Assembly (NCBI GenBank): GCA_016793525.1
Contig: JAEUJT010000022.1
Location: 1-7,321 of the forward strand
DNA from: Archangium sp.
Lineage (GTDB): Bacteria; Myxococcota; Myxococcia; Myxococcales; Myxococcaceae
DNA length: 7,321 nt
Direction of reading: 5' to 3'
The stretch's first letter is position 1; each line of letters opens with the position of its first letter. The notes below the pieces were generated by a model. It was not told the DNA's origin. It saw only the letters and a program-made list of their open reading frames with translations, and made no database searches. Both the position numbers and the translations under genes were made by a program. Shown here in pieces: positions 1 through 7,321 of this stretch.

Positions 1-3000
1 CCTCACTCGACACGCCGAGGGCTCCGATGACCACCTCTTCGACGACCTCGTTCAGGTTCTGGTTGCAGATGCTGCCTGTGCTGCCGCCGGTCTGGTTGGC
101 CAACGAGATGTACTGCCGGCCCGCCTCAGCCTGCGCGTAGCCGACCTTGATGCAGCCCGCTGGGAGCGGCCCGACGATGGCGAACGCCACCGCGTTTTCG
201 GCGCGGTATTCGTCGACGTAGGTGCTCATCGGCTGAATCGCCTTGTTGTCTTCGTCGCTGAAGAAGATGACCACCAGGCCCGCACCTTCGCGAATTCGGA
301 AGGCCTCGGGCGTCGACGCCAGGCGCGCCCGGCGAATGGCTCGGAGCCCGAACTCGATGCCCATCTCGTTCACGTTGCCCTCGAGGCCCACGTCGACGGC
401 GTTCTGGAACGGCACCAGCTGGTTGGTGAAGCCGGCCCCGCGCGGAATATCGCTGTCGGTGGTCACCACCGCGATGCGGAAGTCGAGGCCCGATCGCTGG
501 AACGCTTCGAACAGCCCGGTGGCCGCCGCCTGCAGCGACTGCTGCTGCCGCAACATGCTCAGCGTGTTGTCGATGACGAAGAGGAAGTCGGTCTTCAGTA
601 TGGGCGCCGACGACTTCACGCACTCGTAGCCCAGGTCGCGGTCGGGGTTGGTGCCCGACAGGTGCGAGCCGTTGGTCAGGTCGGTGAGCGCCGGGAGGTT
701 CTGTCGGTACTTCGACTCCGGCGTCACCGCGGCGCCGATGAACAACTGCGTCGGTGTCACTCGGAAGAAGAGCGACACGGCCATTTCGGCGGTGGGGCTC
801 GCCGTGGCGCTCGCGGGCAACGTGCCCAGGGCCGACGGCGCGAGACCCGAGAGACTCGAGAGCAGCCGGTTTCGCACCGAGAAGGCGTTGGTTGGGGTAC
901 CGAAGATGAGCGCCTGCGCGGTGCTGAAGTTCTTCAGGCCGCGATCGCCTTCGAACACTTTGTTGTACCGCTCGGTGCGTTCACGCACGAGCGGCGAGCC
1001 CTGGAGGCCATCGAGCGCGGCGACCTCGCGAGCAGCGAGCGCGTCGAGCGTCGCTGGGTCGTTCGGGTCGACGCCCGCCGGAAGCTCCTTCGCCAGCACC
1101 AACGCCGCGACCTCGGCCGTGTCGTCGTCGAGGAGCACCGCCTGCGCGAGCTCGTGCGAGACGACCGCATACCGGCGGCTGTGGGCGAGCACCACCGTCG
1201 ACCCGGGCACGGGCACCACCAGGTGCTCGACTGGGCCCAACCCTGGGCACGCCCAGTTCGGCACCGGCGGAACGAAGGGGCCGCCGTCGACACCGCCGTC
1301 GGTCGTGCCGGCGTCGACTCCGCCGTCGACCTCGATCCCTCCGTCGATGACCGTCGGGCCCGGCGTGGTGAGCTCCGACGTGCAGGCCGTGAAGACCGCT
1401 CCGGCCGCCACCACCCCGAGCACCGCCGACGCGCGCCGGCGGCTCCGACGCAGTGCCACCACCACCAAGGCTGCCATCGCCAACGTCGCCGCGCCGTCGC
1501 TGCTGTTGCAGCCACAGCCGGTCGTGACCACGGGCCGCGGCTTCGGCTGCATCATGCCGCCGTCGGGCAACATCACCATGCCGGCGTCGTTCATCATCAT
1601 CATGCCGGCGTCTTCACCTCCGTCGACGCCAGCGTCTTCGATGAAGCCACCGTCGGCCGTGGTGCACACCCGCAGGCCCGTCGCCGGGTCGAGGTCGAGC
1701 ATGCCGTCGCAGTCGTTGTCTTTGCCGTCGCAGACCTCTGCAGCGCCGCGGAAGATGACGCGGTCGGCGTCGTTGCAGTCGCCGTCGCAGTTGGTCTGGC
1801 CGTCGCCGTCGGCGTCGAAGCACACCGAGCACAGGTTGAAGACGCCGGCCGCGGAGTCGACGTACCCGTCGCAGTTGTTGTCGACGCGGTCACACACCTC
1901 GCGCGAGTGCGGGGTGATGGCCGGGTCGCCGTCGTTGCAGTCACCGCAGATGGGCGTGAAGCCGTCGCCGTCTTGATCGTCGGCACCTTCGTCGGCGATG
2001 CCGTTGCAGTTGTCGTCGACCGTGTTGCCCGGGAGCTCGATCTTCCCGGGGTTCACGTTGGGGTTCATGTCGTTGCAGTCACCGAAGCAGCTGACGTAGC
2101 GGTCTCCGTCTTGGTCGAAGCCTTCGTCGAACTGGCCGTTGCAGTCGTTGTCTTGCCCGTCGCAGACCTCCATCGCCGCCGAAATGGGCCCCGCCGCCGC
2201 GTGCACCGCGGTGTTGAAGTCGTTGCAGTCGTTCTGGCAGGTGCTGACGCCGTCGCCGTCGTTGTCGGTGTCTTCATCGACGCGGCCGTCGCAGTTGTCG
2301 TCTTTCTGGTTCCCGCATACCTCGCTGCGCAGCGGGCTCGACGACACGTCGTTGTCGTCGCAGTCGCCTGAGCACGTCGAGACGAAGTCACCGTCGCTGT
2401 CGAAGCCCTCGTCGACTTGGTTGTTGCAGTTGTTGTCGAAGCCGTCGCAGCGCTCGATGGCGCCCGGGTTCACGTCGAGAAGCTTGTCGTCGCAGTCGCC
2501 ATGGCCGGTGGTGAAGCCGTCGCCATCTTCGTCGACGTCTTCGTCGAGCGCGCCGTCGCAGTCGTTGTCGACGCCATCACCGACGACCTCCGTGCGGCGT
2601 GGGCTGACGGCGCCACCGGTGCCCGGGTTGTCGTCGCAGTCACCTTCGCAATTGGTGACGCCGTCGCGATCGAAATCGTGGCAGGGGGCGCCCAGGCAGA
2701 CATCACCTTCATCAGACACGCCGTTGCAGTTGTTGTCTTTGCAGTCGCAAATCTCGGCGCCGCCATCGCGCAGGAAGCGGTCGTTGTCATTGCAGTCGCC
2801 AGCGCACGTCGTCTGGCCGTCGCCGTCGAGGTCGAAGCCGTCGTCGATGATGCCGTCGCAGTCGTCGTCGACGCCATTGCAGATCGACTCCGGGTCATTC
2901 ACGCCGCCGTCGGAGAAGGCTGGCACACCACCGTCGGGCAGCGCCCTGGGCGTCTGTTCGCCGATGCAAGCGCCGGTGCCCATGCCGTTCTGGCAGCTCT

Positions 3001-6000
3001 GGGTCCCGTCGACGCAAATGCCGAGGCGGCGCGTGTTGGCGGGCCCGGAGTAGCAGCCGGTCTGGGTGCCGTCGGTGACGCTGTCGCAGTTGTTGTCTTT
3101 GCCGTCGCAGAGCTCGAGCGCTCCCGGCTTGATGGTGTCGTCGTTGTCGTCACAGTCGCAGTTCGCCGCTGCGGTGCTGGTGCAGAGCGCGCACGATTTG
3201 AAGCCGTCCATGTCGACGTCGAAGGTGCCGTTGTCGACGGTGCCGTTGCAGTCGTCGTCGACGCCGTTGCACGTCTCCCCCTGCGGCAGGGTGACACCCG
3301 TGCACACGCCCCACGCGCCAGCCGCGGAGCACGTCTGGATACCGGCCACGCACGCGCCTTTGGGCGTGCACTGCGCACCAGGGCAGGTGTTGAGGTAGGT
3401 GATGGGCGGCGGGATGGTGCCGTCTTCGGCTGAGAAGCAGCGCCGCGTTGGCACGTCGTTGAGCAGGCCGTTGCAGTTGCTGTCGACCGTGTCGCACACC
3501 TCGACCGCGCCAGGCTTGATGTTCGGGTCGTTGTCGTTGCAGTCGCAGTTCACCGGGTTGCCGCACAGCGCGCACGACACGAAGCCATCGTTGTCTTGGT
3601 CGAAGCCGTCGTCCGCGCGACCGTCGCAGTCGTCGTCGAACGTGTTGCAGAGCGTCTCTGGGAGGCTCGGCATGTTCGTCGGCACCTTCTCGCCTACGCA
3701 CGCCCCGTACACGTCAATGCCCGCGCCTGAACACTCCTGGGTACCCGCGACACACGTGCCCACGCCCTGGGTGCCCGAAGGGCCGGAATAGCAGTTGCGC
3801 GAAATCTTGCCGTTGGGCCCAGCGCCTTCATCGACGACGTTGTTGCAGTTGTTGTCGAGGCCGTCGCACGACTCCTGGAGGCCCGGACGCACCCGGTTGC
3901 CCCCGTCGGGGCTGTCGTTGCAGTCGCAGAGGCCCGGGGCGAGCGCGCCGCACGAGCCGCAGGCCAGCACTCCGTCTCCGTCGAGGTTGACGCCCAACCC
4001 GTCGTCAGCCGTGCCGTCGCAGTCTTCGTCCAAGCCGTTGCACGCCAGCTCGGGACCAGACGGCGGCGTCACCGAAGGCAAGGTCTGGCCCGTGCACGCC
4101 AAGAACGCGCCCGCGCCGTCGCAGATCTGCGAACCGGCCACGCAGATGCCGAAGGGCAGACAGATGCCGCCGTCTCGGCAGGTGCCGGCGTAGGTCCCCG
4201 TCGGGCCGTCGAAGCAGATGCGGCGAATGGGGCCGCCGTCGGCCTGCACGTCGAAGATACCGTTGCAGTCGTCGTCTTCGTTGTTGCAGGTCTCGACGAT
4301 GGGGCCGTTGGTGCGCACGCAGGTGGCCGTATTTCCCTGGCACCGCAGCGTGCCGGGCCCACATCGGCCGAACTGCCCGGTCATGCACGGCGTGCCCAAA
4401 CCGGGGATGTCGTCGACGGCGTTGTTGCAGTCGTTGTCGATGCCGTCACACACCTCGGTGGGGTCCGGGAAGACCGTCTGCTGGCAAACGAGAACGCCGC
4501 CGTCGACGCAGTTACGAATACCGTTGCGGCAGGGGCCGAAGAGCCCCGTCAACGTGCACGCGCCTCCGCCGTCGGGGTTGCCTTCGTCGACCGACATGTT
4601 GCAGTTGTCATCGATGCCGTTGCAGCGCTCGGCGATGGGCGCCAGCGGGTTGCATTGCGTACCAGCGTCGGCTGCGCAGGCGATGGTGCCCGACGCGCAG
4701 CGGCCCACGCCTCCGGAGACGGCGCACGTCGTGCCAAGGTTGAAGCCGTTGTCGGTTCCCCCTGAGCAGTTCTCGTCGCGCCCGTCGCACAGCAGCTCAG
4801 GCATGTTCGGGGTGCTCTGAGGGAGGATGGGGGCTGGGCAGCTGGTGATGAGCCCGAGGCAGACACCGGCGTCGGTCCACCGGGCGACGCCGCTGTCAAT
4901 CACCGCATCGCACGCCTGTCGGCCGTTGCGGCAGATGTTCGGGTTGCTCCCAGGACTGCCGTAGGTGCTCGTCGGCGTCGGGTAGAAGTTGCGCGACAGC
5001 TTCTGGCCCACCAACGTCGGGTCTTCGTCGATGAGGCCGTCGCAGTCGTTGTCGATGCCGTCACAGACCTCGGTGCCGCCGTCGAAGGTCGACCGACACA
5101 CCGGCATGCCGCCATCGGCCGGGCACTGCAACATGCCGACGTTGCACACGCCGGGGAGCCCAGGGAGGCACGACATGCCGCCACCCGGGTTGCCGTCGTC
5201 GGGGGTGCCGTCGCAGTCGTTGTCGACGCCGTCACAGGTGGACTCGGAGTTGGCTGGGGTGTTGGCCGGCAACACCTGCTGCGCGCAGGTCGCGAGCACG
5301 CCGCACACGCTGCACGCCGTGAAGCTGGAGGTGCCTGAGCCCGCCGTCGCGTTGCAGGCGCGCTGGCCTCCGACGCAGATGCCGACGTTCTGCGTGCCGC
5401 CGGGACCGTCGTAACAAGCCTGTACAATCTTCGGGGTGTTCGCCGCGCCCTGCTCATCGACGAAGCCGTCGCAGTCGTTGTCGAGGCCGTCACATGTCTC
5501 GGTGCCGGCATCGACATTGCGAACGCACTGCAGGCCCGACACACCCAAGCAGCGATTCGTACCGGCGCTGCACACGCCTTGTTCACCCGTGCTGCACGCG
5601 TTGCCGGCGCCGGAGATGCCGTTGTCGACGGTGTTGTTGCAGTCGTCGTCGATGCCGTTGCAGGTCTCGGTGGTCGCGGTGACGGGAGCGGTGCAGGTCG
5701 TGCCGCCGGGGCACGTGCCGCAGGTCGACCACGTGGTGGTGTTCGGCGACGCCGACACACAGGCCTGCGTACCAAAGCGACAGATACCCGCGTCGACCGT
5801 CCCGGGTCCTGGGAAGCAGAGCTGCGTCAATTTCGGGACGCCCGCATCGGGTACGGCGTTGTCGACGAAGCTGTCGCAGTTGTCGTCAATGCCGTTGCAC
5901 GTTTCGGCAGTCCCCAAAACCACCTGTGGACACGTCAGCGTACCACCCGAGCAGGTCAACGTACTCGCCGCGCAGGGCCCGAACTTCGCTGGAACAGAGC

Positions 6001-6295
6001 ACGCGGCGCCGCCGCCAGGGTTCCCTTCATCGGTCGAGCTGTTGCAGTTGTTGTCTTTGTTGTCGCAGACCTCGGGCGCTGCGCCCGCTGGGAAGCTCTT
6101 CGGGGGGTACGCCGGGCAGGCCGGGCCGCGAATCTGGTCGTCGGTGTCGACACAGTCGCCAAAGCCTCGTCGGCAACCGTCGCTGTCGCAGTCGTCTTCT
6201 TGGTCGAACGGAGGGCCAGGACACGCCGCGTAGGTCGGCGCGGAGTACAGGGCGACCGCGGCCGCCGCTGCCGTCATCAGAATCGAAACGCGCAT
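1..6295 (-). CDS. Giant MopE-repeat / internal MYXO-CTERM-like / vWA-domain surface protein (3' end outside the window)
   Basis: One frame runs from ATG at 6295 to the left edge with no stop: 2098 codons plus one base. Order of parts: signal peptide (residues 1-23); 25 Cys-rich MopE-type units (about 75-1536); Asp/Gly linker with a Met-rich patch (1565-1582); MYXO-CTERM-like segment (1592-1621); second hydrophobic stretch with a lipobox-like Cys1638; DGG linker (1639-1672); unrecognised domain (1673-1898); vWA domain (from about 1899). By eye there are well over 100 Cys, mostly in the first 1540 residues, so it is probably exported and disulphide-rich. MopE-type motifs (Pfam 'putative metal-binding motif') are known from surface and secreted proteins of many bacteria, and vWA domains bind ligands through a metal site. 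I infer a cell-surface protein with metal-binding and adhesive roles. Oddity: a tail motif sits inside the chain, so this may be a fusion of two genes. It is not an orthologue of Methylococcus MopE, so no symbol is given. Confidence 0.93.
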   Translation of the reverse strand, partial: MRVSILMTAAAAAVALYSAPTYAACPGPPFDQEDDCDSDGCRRGFGDCVDTDDQIRGPACPAYPPKSFPAGAAPEVCDNKDNNCNSSTDEGNPGGGAACSVPAKFGPCAASTLTCSGGTLTCPQVVLGTAETCNGIDDNCDSFVDNAVPDAGVPKLTQLCFPGPGTVDAGICRFGTQACVSASPNTTTWSTCGTCPGGTTCTAPVTATTETCNGIDDDCNNTVDNGISGAGNACSTGEQGVCSAGTNRCLGVSGLQCVRNVDAGTETCDGLDNDCDGFVDEQGAANTPKIVQACYDGPGGTQNVGICVGGQRACNATAGSGTSSFTACSVCGVLATCAQQVLPANTPANSESTCDGVDNDCDGTPDDGNPGGGMSCLPGLPGVCNVGMLQCPADGGMPVCRSTFDGGTEVCDGIDNDCDGLIDEDPTLVGQKLSRNFYPTPTSTYGSPGSNPNICRNGRQACDAVIDSGVARWTDAGVCLGLITSCPAPILPQSTPNMPELLCDGRDENCSGGTDNGFNLGTTCAVSGGVGRCASGTIACAADAGTQCNPLAPIAERCNGIDDNCNMSVDEGNPDGGGACTLTGLFGPCRNGIRNCVDGGVLVCQQTVFPDPTEVCDGIDNDCNNAVDDIPGLGTPCMTGQFGRCGPGTLRCQGNTATCVRTNGPIVETCNNEDDDCNGIFDVQADGGPIRRICFDGPTGTYAGTCRDGGICLPFGICVAGSQICDGAGAFLACTGQTLPSVTPPSGPELACNGLDEDCDGTADDGLGVNLDGDGVLACGSCGALAPGLCDCNDSPDGGNRVRPGLQESCDGLDNNCNNVVDEGAGPNGKISRNCYSGPSGTQGVGTCVAGTQECSGAGIDVYGACVGEKVPTNMPSLPETLCNTFDDDCDGRADDGFDQDNDGFVSCALCGNPVNCDCNDNDPNIKPGAVEVCDTVDSNCNGLLNDVPTRRCFSAEDGTIPPPITYLNTCPGAQCTPKGACVAGIQTCSAAGAWGVCTGVTLPQGETCNGVDDDCNGTVDNGTFDVDMDGFKSCALCTSTAAANCDCDDNDDTIKPGALELCDGKDNNCDSVTDGTQTGCYSGPANTRRLGICVDGTQSCQNGMGTGACIGEQTPRALPDGGVPAFSDGGVNDPESICNGVDDDCDGIIDDGFDLDGDGQTTCAGDCNDNDRFLRDGGAEICDCKDNNCNGVSDEGDVCLGAPCHDFDRDGVTNCEGDCDDNPGTGGAVSPRRTEVVGDGVDNDCDGALDEDVDEDGDGFTTGHGDCDDKLLDVNPGAIERCDGFDNNCNNQVDEGFDSDGDFVSTCSGDCDDNDVSSSPLRSEVCGNQKDDNCDGRVDEDTDNDGDGVSTCQNDCNDFNTAVHAAAGPISAAMEVCDGQDNDCNGQFDEGFDQDGDRYVSCFGDCNDMNPNVNPGKIELPGNTVDDNCNGIADEGADDQDGDGFTPICGDCNDGDPAITPHSREVCDRVDNNCDGYVDSAAGVFNLCSVCFDADGDGQTNCDGDCNDADRVIFRGAAEVCDGKDNDCDGMLDLDPATGLRVCTTADGGFIEDAGVDGGEDAGMMMMNDAGMVMLPDGGMMQPKPRPVVTTGCGCNSSDGAATLAMAALVVVALRRSRRRASAVLGVVAAGAVFTACTSELTTPGPTVIDGGIEVDGGVDAGTTDGGVDGGPFVPPVPNWACPGLGPVEHLVVPVPGSTVVLAHSRRYAVVSHELAQAVLLDDDTAEVAALVLAKELPAGVDPNDPATLDALAAREVAALDGLQGSPLVRERTERYNKVFEGDRGLKNFSTAQALIFGTPTNAFSVRNRLLSSLSGLAPSALGTLPASATASPTAEMAVSLFFRVTPTQLFIGAAVTPESKYRQNLPALTDLTNGSHLSGTNPDRDLGYECVKSSAPILKTDFLFVIDNTLSMLRQQQSLQAAATGLFEAFQRSGLDFRIAVVTTDSDIPRGAGFTNQLVPFQNAVDVGLEGNVNEMGIEFGLRAIRRARLASTPEAFRIREGAGLVVIFFSDEDNKAIQPMSTYVDEYRAENAVAFAIVGPLPAGCIKVGYAQAEAGRQYISLANQTGGSTGSICNQNLNEVVEEVVIGALGVSSE
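2..601 (-). other. von Willebrand factor A domain with variant MIDAS (C-terminal side cut by window)
   Basis: From about residue 1899 the chain reads DFLFVIDNTLSML, a hydrophobic strand ending in the first metal-site motif, here D1909-N-T1911-L-S1913 in place of the usual D-x-S-x-S. A helix, a strand (DFRIAVVTTDSD), a GNVNEMGIE loop with helix, and the strand LVVIFFSDEDN follow; Asp2014 or Asp2016 fits the third metal-site motif. The Thr of the second motif is not obvious. Known vWA domains bind ligands through a metal in this site, often in adhesion or protein complexes. The frame leaves the window at residue 2098. Confidence 0.83.
602..1279 (-). other. Unrecognised domain between linker and vWA
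   Basis: Residues 1673-1898 start FVPPVPNWACPG and hold about 225 residues with normal globular composition. Cys is rare: one in WACPG and one in GYECVKS just before the vWA domain, a possible disulphide. There is a charged helical region around LVRERTERYNKVFEG. I do not recognise a family. Confidence 0.6.
1280..1381 (-). other. Asp-Gly-Gly linker after the lipobox
   Basis: Residues 1639-1672 are low-complexity, with several DGG/DAG steps (for example VDGGVDAGTTDGGVDGG). Flexible linkers like this commonly follow the lipid-anchored Cys in myxobacterial lipoproteins and support reading the preceding segment as a former or active lipoprotein signal. Confidence 0.7.
1382..1450 (-). other. Lipoprotein-signal-like segment with lipobox, internal
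   Basis: Residues 1616-1638 show RRSRRR, then AVLGVVAAGAVFTA, then Cys1638. This is the layout of a lipoprotein signal peptide (basic start, hydrophobic core, lipobox V-F-T-A-C). Phe at -3 is less usual than Leu but tolerated. Thr at +2 would not retain the lipoprotein in the inner membrane. In-frame GTG codons at 1465, 1462 and 1459 and an ATG at 1477 could start a separate protein here, but none has a convincing ribosome-binding site. Confidence 0.6.
1433..1522 (-). other. MYXO-CTERM-like sorting segment, internal
   Basis: Residues 1592-1621 read TGCGCNSSDG, then a hydrophobic stretch of about 14 residues (AATLAMAALVVVAL), then RRSRRR. This matches the layout of MYXO-CTERM tails of myxobacteria: a Gly-Cys-rich motif, a membrane span and an Arg cluster. 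Such tails are thought to be cut and anchored at the Cys by a dedicated membrane protease (myxosortase). Normally the Arg cluster ends the protein; here no stop follows and the same frame continues for at least 477 codons. Confidence 0.75.
1550..1603 (-). other. Met-rich patch in Asp/Gly linker
   Basis: Residues 1565-1582 contain eight Met: four in a row at 1565-1568, then 1573, 1575 and 1581-1582, in a DAG/DGG linker between the last repeat unit and the Cys-Gly-Cys segment. Met clusters bind Cu(I) in some exported proteins. Here that is only a possibility, as the patch may be ordinary low-complexity linker. Confidence 0.6.
1687..2887 (-). repeat. MopE-type units 17-25, Ca-type spacers only
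   Basis: Units start at 2887, 2755, 2590, 2455, 2323, 2170, 2038, 1900 and 1738, with steps of 132-165 bp (44-55 residues). After units 17-24 the spacer is the C type: D-x-D-x-D-G, a Cys, G-D-C-N/D-D and usually a Pro-Gly or similar turn before the next Glu (for example FDSDGDFVSTCSGDCDDND after unit 20). This is the classic MopE arrangement. Units 19 and 23 lack the first Cys (EVVGDGVDNDC and ELPGNTVDDNC). Unit 25 leads into the Asp/Gly/Met linker and has no full spacer. Confidence 0.88.
2888..4048 (-). repeat. MopE-type units 11-16, alternating Ca-type and long Cys-rich spacers
   Basis: Units start at 4048, 3874, 3655, 3502, 3277 and 3115. Here the short spacer is replaced by a Ca-binding style ('C') with D-x-D-x-D-G, then C, then C-N/D-D-N-D and P-G-A, as in FDQDNDGFVSCALCG after unit 13. 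The long B type is kept after units 12, 14 and 16 (for example NCYSGPSGTQGVGTC). Spacer order: C B C B C B, with steps of 153-174 bp and 219-228 bp. D-x-D-x-D-G loops resemble those of thrombospondin type 3 and dockerin repeats, so Ca2+ binding is likely; this is inferred from family knowledge. Confidence 0.87.
4049..6073 (-). repeat. MopE-type units 1-10, alternating short and long Cys-rich spacers
   Basis: Ten units of the form E-x-C-D/N-G-x-D-D/N-D/N-C-D/N-x-x-x-D-E/N/D start (minus strand) at 6073, 5905, 5668, 5500, 5242, 5071, 4795, 4630, 4456 and 4294. Short spacers ('A') carry an AC-x-x-G-x-x-G-x-C-x-x-G-x-x-x-C pattern; an example is ACSTGEQGVCSAG after unit 3. Long spacers ('B') carry a C-Y/F-x-G-P-x-G-T then G-I-C-x-x-G-x-x-x-C pattern; an example is CYDGPGGTQNVGICVGG after unit 4. 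Order of spacers after units 1-10: A B A B A B A A A B. Unit-to-unit steps are 162-174 bp for A and 237-276 bp for B. The spacer after unit 6 is a diverged B: it has lost the first Cys and the G-P-x-G-T core. Confidence 0.88.
6227..6295 (-). other. Sec signal peptide of the giant protein
   Basis: The first 23 residues have one Arg at position 2, an Ala-rich hydrophobic core (residues 3-17), and a T-Y-A site before A24-C25. This fits signal peptidase I cleavage after Ala23. Cys25 is not in a good lipobox context because Tyr and Ala precede it, so the mature N-terminus is probably not lipidated. Export agrees with the Cys-rich repeats that follow. Confidence 0.75.
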
Positions 6296-6309
6296 TAGAA
6301 GAAGGCTCC
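6293..6309 (-). promoter_or_regulatory. TAATG stop/start overlap with upstream GGAG ribosome-binding site
   Basis: The TAA ending the barrel-like gene (6297-6295) shares one base with the ATG of the large repeat gene (6295-6293). A GGAG at 6309-6306 lies 10 bases before the ATG and inside the upstream coding sequence. This is a plausible, slightly distant Shine-Dalgarno site. The arrangement is typical of translational coupling within one mRNA, and there is no room for a separate promoter right at the junction. It also supports this ATG over a second in-frame ATG six codons later, which would lose the only basic residue before the hydrophobic core. Confidence 0.7.
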
Positions 6310-7321
6310 AACCTCGACACCGAAGAACATGCGCGTGTCTACTACCGCGAGTCCGGCATTGTCGGAGGCCTGAATGCGCGACAGTCGGCCACCGCCGCGC
6401 GCGAAGAGAAACGAAATGGGCTTGGCCTCGAGCCAGGCCTCACCGGCGACCGTGAAGCCCGGATTCGCGCTGGGGCCAGCGAAGAGAAAGCGAGGGCCCA
6501 CCGCCACGTCGAGCGACAACACGTCTTTGAACACCGGCTGACGAACTCGGAGCTGCGCATCGATGCCGCGGTAGACGGTGCTGATCACCGGCAGATCGCA
6601 AGCAAAGACCGTGCGCTCTTGGCTGAAGCCTCCTCCGAGACCCACGGAGGGCGCGTACGTGCCATCCGTCAGCCGGTACCGGTACGTGCCGCGCAGCTGC
6701 AAGTCATCGTCGGTCATCGAGCAGCTCTGCCCTTCGACGCCGCCCGAGACGCCTGTGGCCGCGGTGAACGAGCGCCGCCAGTGCACTTCGAGCTCGAGGT
6801 CCGACCACTTTTTTCCTTCGGTGGCCGCAATAAATTGCAGGGGGTTGATGTGCGCGTACACACCGATGCCGGGGGTACCGCCGTTGCGGAGCTCGGCCAG
6901 GGTCTCCGCCGCCTCACCCGAGACCGACAGGCTGCGCATCACGCCTCCGGGGCCCACCGCCACGCCGATGCGCGGCTTGGTGCGGCGCTCGTCGAACATC
7001 GATTTCTTCTCGACCGCGGCGAACTCGGTGACGGGCTCCGACACCTCGTCTTCGACTGGCGGAGGCGCCACAGTGGGCTCGTCTTTTGGCGCTTCGGCCA
7101 CAGGTGCGGCGGTCTTCTTCGACAGCTCGATGAGCTCCTTGGCGACCAGCGGTGCCAGCTCGTCGGCGTTCTTCGCGCTCAGCGGCTTGGCCTGCGTGCG
7201 GCCGTTGGGGTCGTAGATGGTGGCGGAAAGCGTGCCGCTCTTGGTGCCGTCGAGCACCACCACGAAGCCGGCCTTCGTGCTGCGCGCCAGCTTCTGAATC
7301 GAGGCGGGTTTGTCGACGGTC
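6295..7321 (-). CDS. Putative outer-membrane beta-barrel protein (5' end outside the window)
   Basis: The frame is open from the right edge to a TAA stop at 6297-6295, giving 341 visible residues. A GTG at 7263 is in frame, but the frame continues upstream of it, so the true start is probably outside the window. Visible residues 1-69 look like a small alpha/beta domain (strand-like GFVVVLDG and LSATIYD, then a helix-like stretch rich in Leu, Glu and Lys). Residues about 70-115 form a Pro/Glu/Ala-rich linker. Residues about 116-341 alternate polar and hydrophobic residues with many Gly and aromatics, as in outer-membrane barrels, and the chain ends MFFGVEVGAFF, with the terminal Phe typical of BAM-recognised barrels. 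Two Cys, near residues 200 and 241, could pair. No family is recognised with certainty. The stop overlaps the start of the next gene, implying an operon and perhaps a joint envelope role. A soluble periplasmic beta protein is the alternative. Confidence 0.82.
   Translation of the reverse strand, partial: TVDKPASIQKLARSTKAGFVVVLDGTKSGTLSATIYDPNGRTQAKPLSAKNADELAPLVAKELIELSKKTAAPVAEAPKDEPTVAPPPVEDEVSEPVTEFAAVEKKSMFDERRTKPRIGVAVGPGGVMRSLSVSGEAAETLAELRNGGTPGIGVYAHINPLQFIAATEGKKWSDLELEVHWRRSFTAATGVSGGVEGQSCSMTDDDLQLRGTYRYRLTDGTYAPSVGLGGGFSQERTVFACDLPVISTVYRGIDAQLRVRQPVFKDVLSLDVAVGPRFLFAGPSANPGFTVAGEAWLEAKPISFLFARGGGRLSRIQASDNAGLAVVDTRMFFGVEVGAFF

Follow-up and report, generated by a model that had tools for sequence, protein, structure and literature searches.

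A 7,321-nucleotide stretch of an Archangium sp. genome (contig JAEUJT010000022.1, positions 1 to 7,321; hereafter the window) contains an open reading frame (ORF) in which a MYXO-CTERM sorting tag is followed, in the same frame and with no stop, by a lipoprotein signal. This ORF encodes 2098 residues (2-6295, minus strand, as for all window features below), its C-terminal end being cut off at the window edge, and joins a MopE repeat region to a half with a predicted vWA domain. Its motifs suggest that the product is likely to be a secreted polyprotein, in which a myxosortase would cut at the tag and LspA at the lipobox. An earlier note on this DNA had described an uninterrupted frame with both motifs, and an Arg cluster common to the tag end and the start of the second signal. 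The frame was found to run from 6295 to 2 over 2098 codons with zero stops, the coordinates and Cys1638 given there were exact, and the common cluster is RRSRRR at 1433-1450.

The ORF begins with a first signal peptide, MRVSILMTAAAAAVALYSAPTYA (6227-6295), judged by eye to be of type I, followed by 15 MopE repeat stretches (1670-6226; PF11617, E = 2.3e-133, 434 bits for a gathering cut-off of 27) and a D/G-rich linker (1520-1669). The tag comprises the GCGC signature (residues 1593-1596, 1508-1519), a hydrophobic span, AATLAMAALVVVAL (residues 1602-1615, 1451-1492), and the RRSRRR cluster (residues 1616-1621), and has the Cys signature, transmembrane helix and Arg-rich end by which MYXO-CTERM is defined (PMC11980579). 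When cut after the Arg cluster, the segment scored 24.8 bits with TIGR03382 (cut-off 15.85) and 23.8 bits with TIGR03901 (cut-off 20); taken as a 79-residue piece, it scored 22.0 and 20.4 bits, respectively. The same cluster forms the positive n-region of the second signal and is followed by the h-region ASAVLGVVAAGAVFTA (residues 1622-1637, 1385-1432) and the lipobox FTAC (1382-1393), with Cys1638 at 1382-1384 and Thr at +2, so that the n-region, h-region and lipobox of a type II signal are all present. This lipobox fits a PROSITE-like pattern. A second D/G-rich linker, TSELTTPG...DGG...DGG (1256-1381), leads to the C-terminal half (2-1255). The Arg cluster is followed by at least 477 residues, and thus the tag is not C-terminal; the type II signal occupies residues 1616-1638 of at least 2098 and is not at the N-terminus of the primary product. 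GC content by codon position across the joint was coding-like, with 0.89 at third positions, which is not decisive.

To assess conservation of the joint, a search with the joint and vWA region as query was performed and led to 35 other proteins of 1449 to 3074 residues. Together with 13 DNA frames (window included), they gave 48 sequences to read, near-copies included, which collapsed to 38 at 90% identity of the vWA half. All 48 showed, by motif and hydropathy and in one frame, a CGC, a hydrophobic span, an Arg/Lys cluster, a second span and a lipobox-type Cys, with the tag internal in each; the CGC and the Cys served as anchors of the reading script, and the Cys of one protein (P0021) was re-anchored by two residues. 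A PROSITE-like lipobox was found in 38/38 non-redundant sequences and after only 11/159 other internal hydrophobic segments of related loci, so that the occurrence of both motifs in 38/38 is beyond chance. Tags cut after the Arg cluster matched TIGR03901 in 33/38 and TIGR03382 in 31/38 cases (E≤0.1). Pairwise identity among the 38 had a median of 52% and a minimum of 32%. The distance from CGC to Cys varied from 34 to 98 residues (median 46), and the hairpin between these cysteine motifs was less conserved than the vWA half (median identities of 31% vs 54%). Some very long loops, of 98 residues in P0040 (residues 1432-1533) and 75 in P0009 (residues 1248-1326), are compatible with a discarded cytoplasmic loop. 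The residue at +2 of the lipid Cys was P, T, G, Q, H, A or S, never D or K; a Lys at this position has been linked to inner-membrane lipoproteins in M. xanthus (PMC3222651).

Six-frame searches covered 145 genomes of the order of genome G003 (E≤1e-60) and 195 genomes of its phylum (E≤1e-40). The MopE-vWA family was found in 12/145 and 14/195 genomes, respectively, and related vWA proteins, here called sister proteins, occurred alone in 7 further genomes of the phylum. Of the 14 family genomes, 12 have the joint within an open frame; in the two others (G002 and G139) the contig ends before the joint, and their frames are absent from the 48 sequences read. Among the explanations offered by the earlier note, a lost stop is excluded for the family by the same in-frame joint in 47 other sequences and 12/14 genomes, with a 100/100-support branch and a median identity of 52%.

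Of the 11 sister hits, all but L108 were examined. In each of these 10 the vWA domain is followed by MopE motifs at the C-terminal end, and in 7 of them a lipobox was seen within the first 60 residues. A tree was built from vWA domains of 38 fused and 10 sister proteins, and a branch with 100/100 support had the fused domains on one side. Since the sisters are vWA lipoproteins and the fused branch is supported at this level, the ancestor of the vWA half was probably a free lipoprotein, and the fusion probably took place a single time and was then retained. A gene fusion, one of the possible readings in the earlier note, is supported; the sister lipoproteins are the counterpart of one half. Other MopE ORFs of related genomes were also analyzed (20 regions, with 12 open frames passing a length and motif filter); one of the 12, L162 in genome G003, encodes a MopE protein with a terminal tag-like tail by eye.

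Several proteins were considered as stand-alone counterparts and rejected. P0004 is near-identical to L001, whose frame continues upstream through the tag to the contig end. The starts of P0003, P0005, P0006 and P0007 lie inside the vWA half, and P0002 starts inside the tag on a 2.3-kb contig; neither arrangement is proof of a split. A distant vWA relative (L008) was present on a 105-kb contig of a metagenome-assembled genome labelled Klebsiella pneumoniae, a label that may be wrong.

To look for internal tags in other proteins, nine genomes were surveyed with TIGR03901 at E≤0.001, with up to 150 candidates scored in each. We read all matches of G003 (10), G056 (9), G150 (30), G163 (19), G161 (4), G135 (7), G098 (4) and G057 (7), and 30 of the 49 of G148, giving a total of 120. 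Most (106) lay within 23 residues of a stop and 14 were internal, a proportion which is not a prevalence, these genomes having been chosen for holding relatives or sister proteins. In 14/14 cases a signal-peptide-like segment was found within 60 residues after the internal tag (10 of type I, 4 of type II). The rule used was a hydropathy and motif test, not SignalP, and was written after the 14 sequences had been viewed, which weakens the test. As a control under the same rule, the 60 in-frame codons past the stops of ordinary tagged genes contained such a segment in 5/105 (strict) or 11/105 (lax) cases, one of the 106 ordinary tags having too little downstream sequence.

By homology of the downstream halves, which is the sole basis for separating them, the 14 internal tags fall into eight groups. 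The first is the MopE-vWA family itself (L187, L261); the best of the four MYXO-CTERM matches in G161, with 32.1 bits, is the internal tag of this family. The second, an OmpA group (L186, L197, L284, L286, L295), resembles the published protein MXAN_5598: Big_13 adhesin parts lie upstream of the tag in L186, L197 and L295, and OmpA scored over the cut-off in L295 and, at the level of the whole ORF, in L186 and L197, the partial L284 being below it and L286 outside the scan. A type I signal-like segment directly follows the tag in these proteins, L284 and L286 resembling MXAN_5598 by their downstream half only. The remaining groups correspond to He_PIG joined to CARDB (L268, L287), MopE with DUF4114 joined to MopE with an FGE-sulfatase domain and a lipobox (L204), amidase joined to PD40 (L240), matrixin joined to matrixin (L277), L292 with no Pfam match on either side of the tag, and L241, which was grouped by homology, with no Pfam scan. 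The upstream halves of L204 and L241 have MopE-type similarity (31-32%) to the MopE-vWA family. Each of the first three groups is represented in more than one genome; a joint seen only once could result from misassembly. At L301:3337-10293 (+), another MopE protein, which contains DUF4114 and an FGE-sulfatase-like domain, carries a tag-plus-lipobox joint of its own, and at L277:493-2469 (+) matrixin-type metalloprotease domains flank one internal tag and signal, like a joined tandem duplicate.

The amidase-PD40 fusion was found to be widespread (L240:416-2509 (-) and P0044-P0136). A protein search gave 335 hits, of which the best 120 were read with a tag rule of our own, not an NCBIfam model: 90 had an internal tag, 6 a terminal tag and 24 none, at least two of those classed as terminal (P0137, P0142) looking like joints cut by the sequence end. 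Under a lax rule, 87/90 internal tags were followed by a signal-like segment (46 type II, 33 type I, 8 doubtful) and 3 failed, the misfits including P0056, which looks like type I. Under a stricter rule 66/90 passed (32 type II, 30 type I, 4 both), with some misfiling, P0101, P0103, P0105 and P0107 looking like type II and P0044 like type I. Clear type II signals with a lipobox (P0061, P0082) and clear type I signals with an AxA site (P0048, P0055) stand at the same joint position. The presence of both types is safe, their ratio being dependent on the rule, and because both occupy one position, a cleavable signal fits better than a structural hairpin. Four short members of 385-494 residues (P0143, P0157, P0158, P0160) end in a tag-like tail and appear, by sequence, to be counterparts of the upstream half alone.

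The enzyme MrtX cleaves MYXO-CTERM tags and requires their Cys (PMC11980579). Its model (NF040593) matched above the cut-off of 180 bits in 12 of the 14 genomes holding the MopE-vWA family.

We infer the topology of the precursor, both cleavages, both lipids and a common function of the products along the following lines. Sec would export the MopE-repeat part until transfer is stopped by the hydrophobic span of the tag, leaving RRSRRR in the cytoplasm. The cluster would then be reused as the n-region of the second signal, returning the chain to the periplasm and placing Cys1638 at the outer face of the inner membrane. Since tag and signal are oppositely oriented around one cytoplasmic Arg cluster, the back-to-back arrangement is topologically natural. 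Cleavage by MrtX at the GCGC cysteine would yield a MopE protein anchored at its C-terminus, Lgt and LspA would lipidate Cys1638 and cut before it to give a vWA protein with an N-terminal lipid, and the hairpin between the two cuts would be thrown away. That the two parts would be freed with these respective anchors is proposed by analogy with HVO_0405 and MXAN_5598. Both products would reach the outer membrane or the surface, probably as partners of the beta-barrel protein predicted from the upstream gene. The polyprotein split, another possible reading in the earlier note, gains support from the conserved joint and from the joints in other families, the cleavage itself being what the motifs would predict.

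Several observations weigh against this processing scheme. In the uncut 2098-residue protein neither TIGR03382 nor TIGR03901 was reported at E≤1, and an uncut relative (L003) scored 18.3 bits with TIGR03901, below the cut-off of 20. The family tag was absent from the E≤0.001 list in five carrier genomes (G056, G057, G098, G135, G163), being either weak by TIGR03901 or outside the 150 candidates scored. The window lipobox has Phe at -3 and fails the strict form [LVI][ASTVI][GAS]C, which is held by 16/38 non-redundant joint sequences. Only weaker MrtX matches, of 118 and 114 bits, were found in G161 and G163. Under the stricter rule 24/90 amidase-PD40 joints failed, many of them with plausible signals by eye. 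Finally, no split two-gene copy of MopE and vWA was found in the six-frame searches.

Some of these points would suit the use of one site only, in which LspA might, for instance, release the vWA lipoprotein and leave the MopE part with its anchor, or the reverse. A non-strict lipobox, a tag only moderately above the model cut-offs and two genomes without MrtX above its cut-off are in line with this explanation, which we regard as unlikely given that both motifs are kept in 38/38 sequences. Slightly less probable still is that the two hydrophobic spans form a permanent membrane hairpin, which would keep both halves in one uncut inner-membrane protein. The earlier note had named a conserved internal hairpin with no two-gene counterparts as the outcome that would speak against its proposal. 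This outcome was obtained by half, since the genomes searched yielded no split copy of the pair. Both spans are present in 38/38 sequences, but processing motifs stand at both ends, and a permanent hairpin is disfavoured because the stretch that separates the two invariant cysteine motifs differs in sequence and length among members, as described above. It is also disfavoured because each half has counterparts (the sister vWA lipoproteins and L162), and because tag-plus-signal joints in other families carry type I in place of type II signals, the amidase-PD40 members holding either at the same position. In addition, the MXAN_5598-like group has a C-terminal OmpA domain, which belongs at the outer membrane. 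Production of the vWA lipoprotein also, or only, from an internal start codon is very improbable. A lipoprotein begun at one of the in-frame GTG codons of residues 1611-1613 would have a normal-looking N-terminus, and one source's gene call for the relative P0004 starts between tag and second signal, but a Shine-Dalgarno-like site precedes such a codon in only 1/13 DNA loci (L114), no start position is common to all 13, and reading passes through the joint anyway, no stop being present. A lost stop codon or an assembly error in the window contig alone is hardly credible, the same in-frame joint being found in the 47 other sequences (near-copies included) and in 12/14 genomes.

With regard to the second half of the fusion, the vWA domain (about 11-598) contains a metal ion-dependent adhesion site (MIDAS)-like sequence, DNTLS; the MIDAS-type motif of vWA domains is DxSxS/DxTxS. 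A structure model of this half was of low confidence (predicted local distance difference test (pLDDT) 63.5, predicted template modelling score 0.47), and Foldseek returned 251 matches at E≤0.001, of which nearly all of the best 50 were of vWA or integrin I type, so that a vWA fold is supported by the model. A Pfam scan of the half gave no match, and in particular none to OmpA, and a PDB sequence search gave no relatives at E≤0.1; PF13519 was found in 13/36 proteins from the joint and vWA search.

The gene upstream of the fusion (6295-7320, 5' end beyond the window) overlaps with its stop the start of the fusion ORF (TAATG). It was kept just 5' of the fusion in 7 of the 9 loci tested, with 41-52% identity, being weak in L117 and not found in L118, and in those 7 loci its stop and the fusion start either overlapped or lay no more than 3 nucleotides apart. 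The Foldseek best 50 matches of its product were mostly outer-membrane barrels, none at E≤0.001, from a low-confidence model (pLDDT 53.8), and an outer-membrane beta-barrel is predicted. Such a barrel-like gene accompanied the fusion in L003, L109-L113 and L115. Downstream of the fusion, two similar-looking ORFs of 261 and about 750-760 residues were noticed in L003 (11477-14614) and L110 (15746-18857), the longer ones carrying CGAPEPTFQV near their start.

Among known systems, CglD and CglD-like lipoproteins combine a vWA domain with MopE motifs in a lipoprotein, and the vWA half of the fusion is a distant relative of them; unlike the fusion, the sister proteins have the order lipobox, vWA, MopE. 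No score with the CglD model NF033765 reached its cut-off of 400, the two sister proteins scanned giving 279 and 290 bits and the window only 66.5 bits, and identification of the vWA half as CglD was rejected. The Bradyrhizobium cytochrome b/c1 precursor FbcH is a bacterial polyprotein cut at an internal signal peptide, like the proposed joint, but is known to have a type I signal only and is not known to carry a sorting tag. Internal MYXO-CTERM tags are known as rare cases, and cleavage at the internal sorting signal of Myxococcus xanthus MXAN_5598 has been proposed (PMC11980579). A table of M. xanthus vesicle proteins gives MXAN_5598 as an OmpA domain protein (PMC4158809). As in the window, its tag is internal, here after an adhesin part, and a second part follows in frame; that part is described as a beta-barrel plus OmpA and not a lipoprotein, in contrast to the vWA half of the window, and the excerpts of the published description mention no second signal (PMC11980579). 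HVO_0405 of Haloferax volcanii, an ArtA substrate, also stems from two formerly separate genes, now fused, and its central sorting signal has been shown by experiment to be cut; it differs in being archaeal, described as strain-specific, and the substrate of a different sorting enzyme, with no second signal mentioned in the excerpts of its description (PMC7157517). The TraA/TraB pair of M. xanthus resembles the window in that a MYXO-CTERM surface protein and its outer-membrane partner, which follows from the paper's comparison to be a barrel/OmpA protein, are encoded by overlapping genes (PMC11980579). In the window, the overlapping gene is the upstream barrel and the tagged protein is fused to a third protein.

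No earlier description of a tag-plus-lipobox joint was found in the open-access literature, most subscription journals not being covered, and internal lipoboxes or internal lipoprotein signals were not the subject of any open-access paper found. As far as searched, the conserved tag-plus-lipobox joint, the fresh signal-like segment after each of 14 internal tags, the spread of the joint over eight groups and the occurrence of both signal types, I and II, at a single joint are new. We lean towards a broader view, somewhat less firmly than for the window itself, in which Myxococcota regularly encode secreted polyproteins with a tag whose Arg cluster doubles as signal n-region. Each joint would be cut on both sides, by MrtX and by either LspA or signal peptidase I, and the two resulting envelope proteins, separately anchored or released, would be equimolar. 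As one Arg cluster serves both tail and signal, neighbouring surface genes could lose the stop between them without harm, and fusions would therefore arise repeatedly and then be kept across distant genomes.

If this is correct, the published oddity MXAN_5598 would be one case of a wider pattern, and an internal tag followed by a new signal would provide an annotation rule for very long myxobacterial surface proteins, the joint predicting the destination of each protein part. Such proteins would also be natural dual-cut reporters for the question, posed in PMC11980579, of which enzyme lipidates MYXO-CTERM cysteines. A single secreted precursor that is turned into two anchored proteins by two different enzymes of the membrane would represent an unusual bacterial polyprotein strategy, and the joint may be a general way to obtain two anchored surface proteins from one message.

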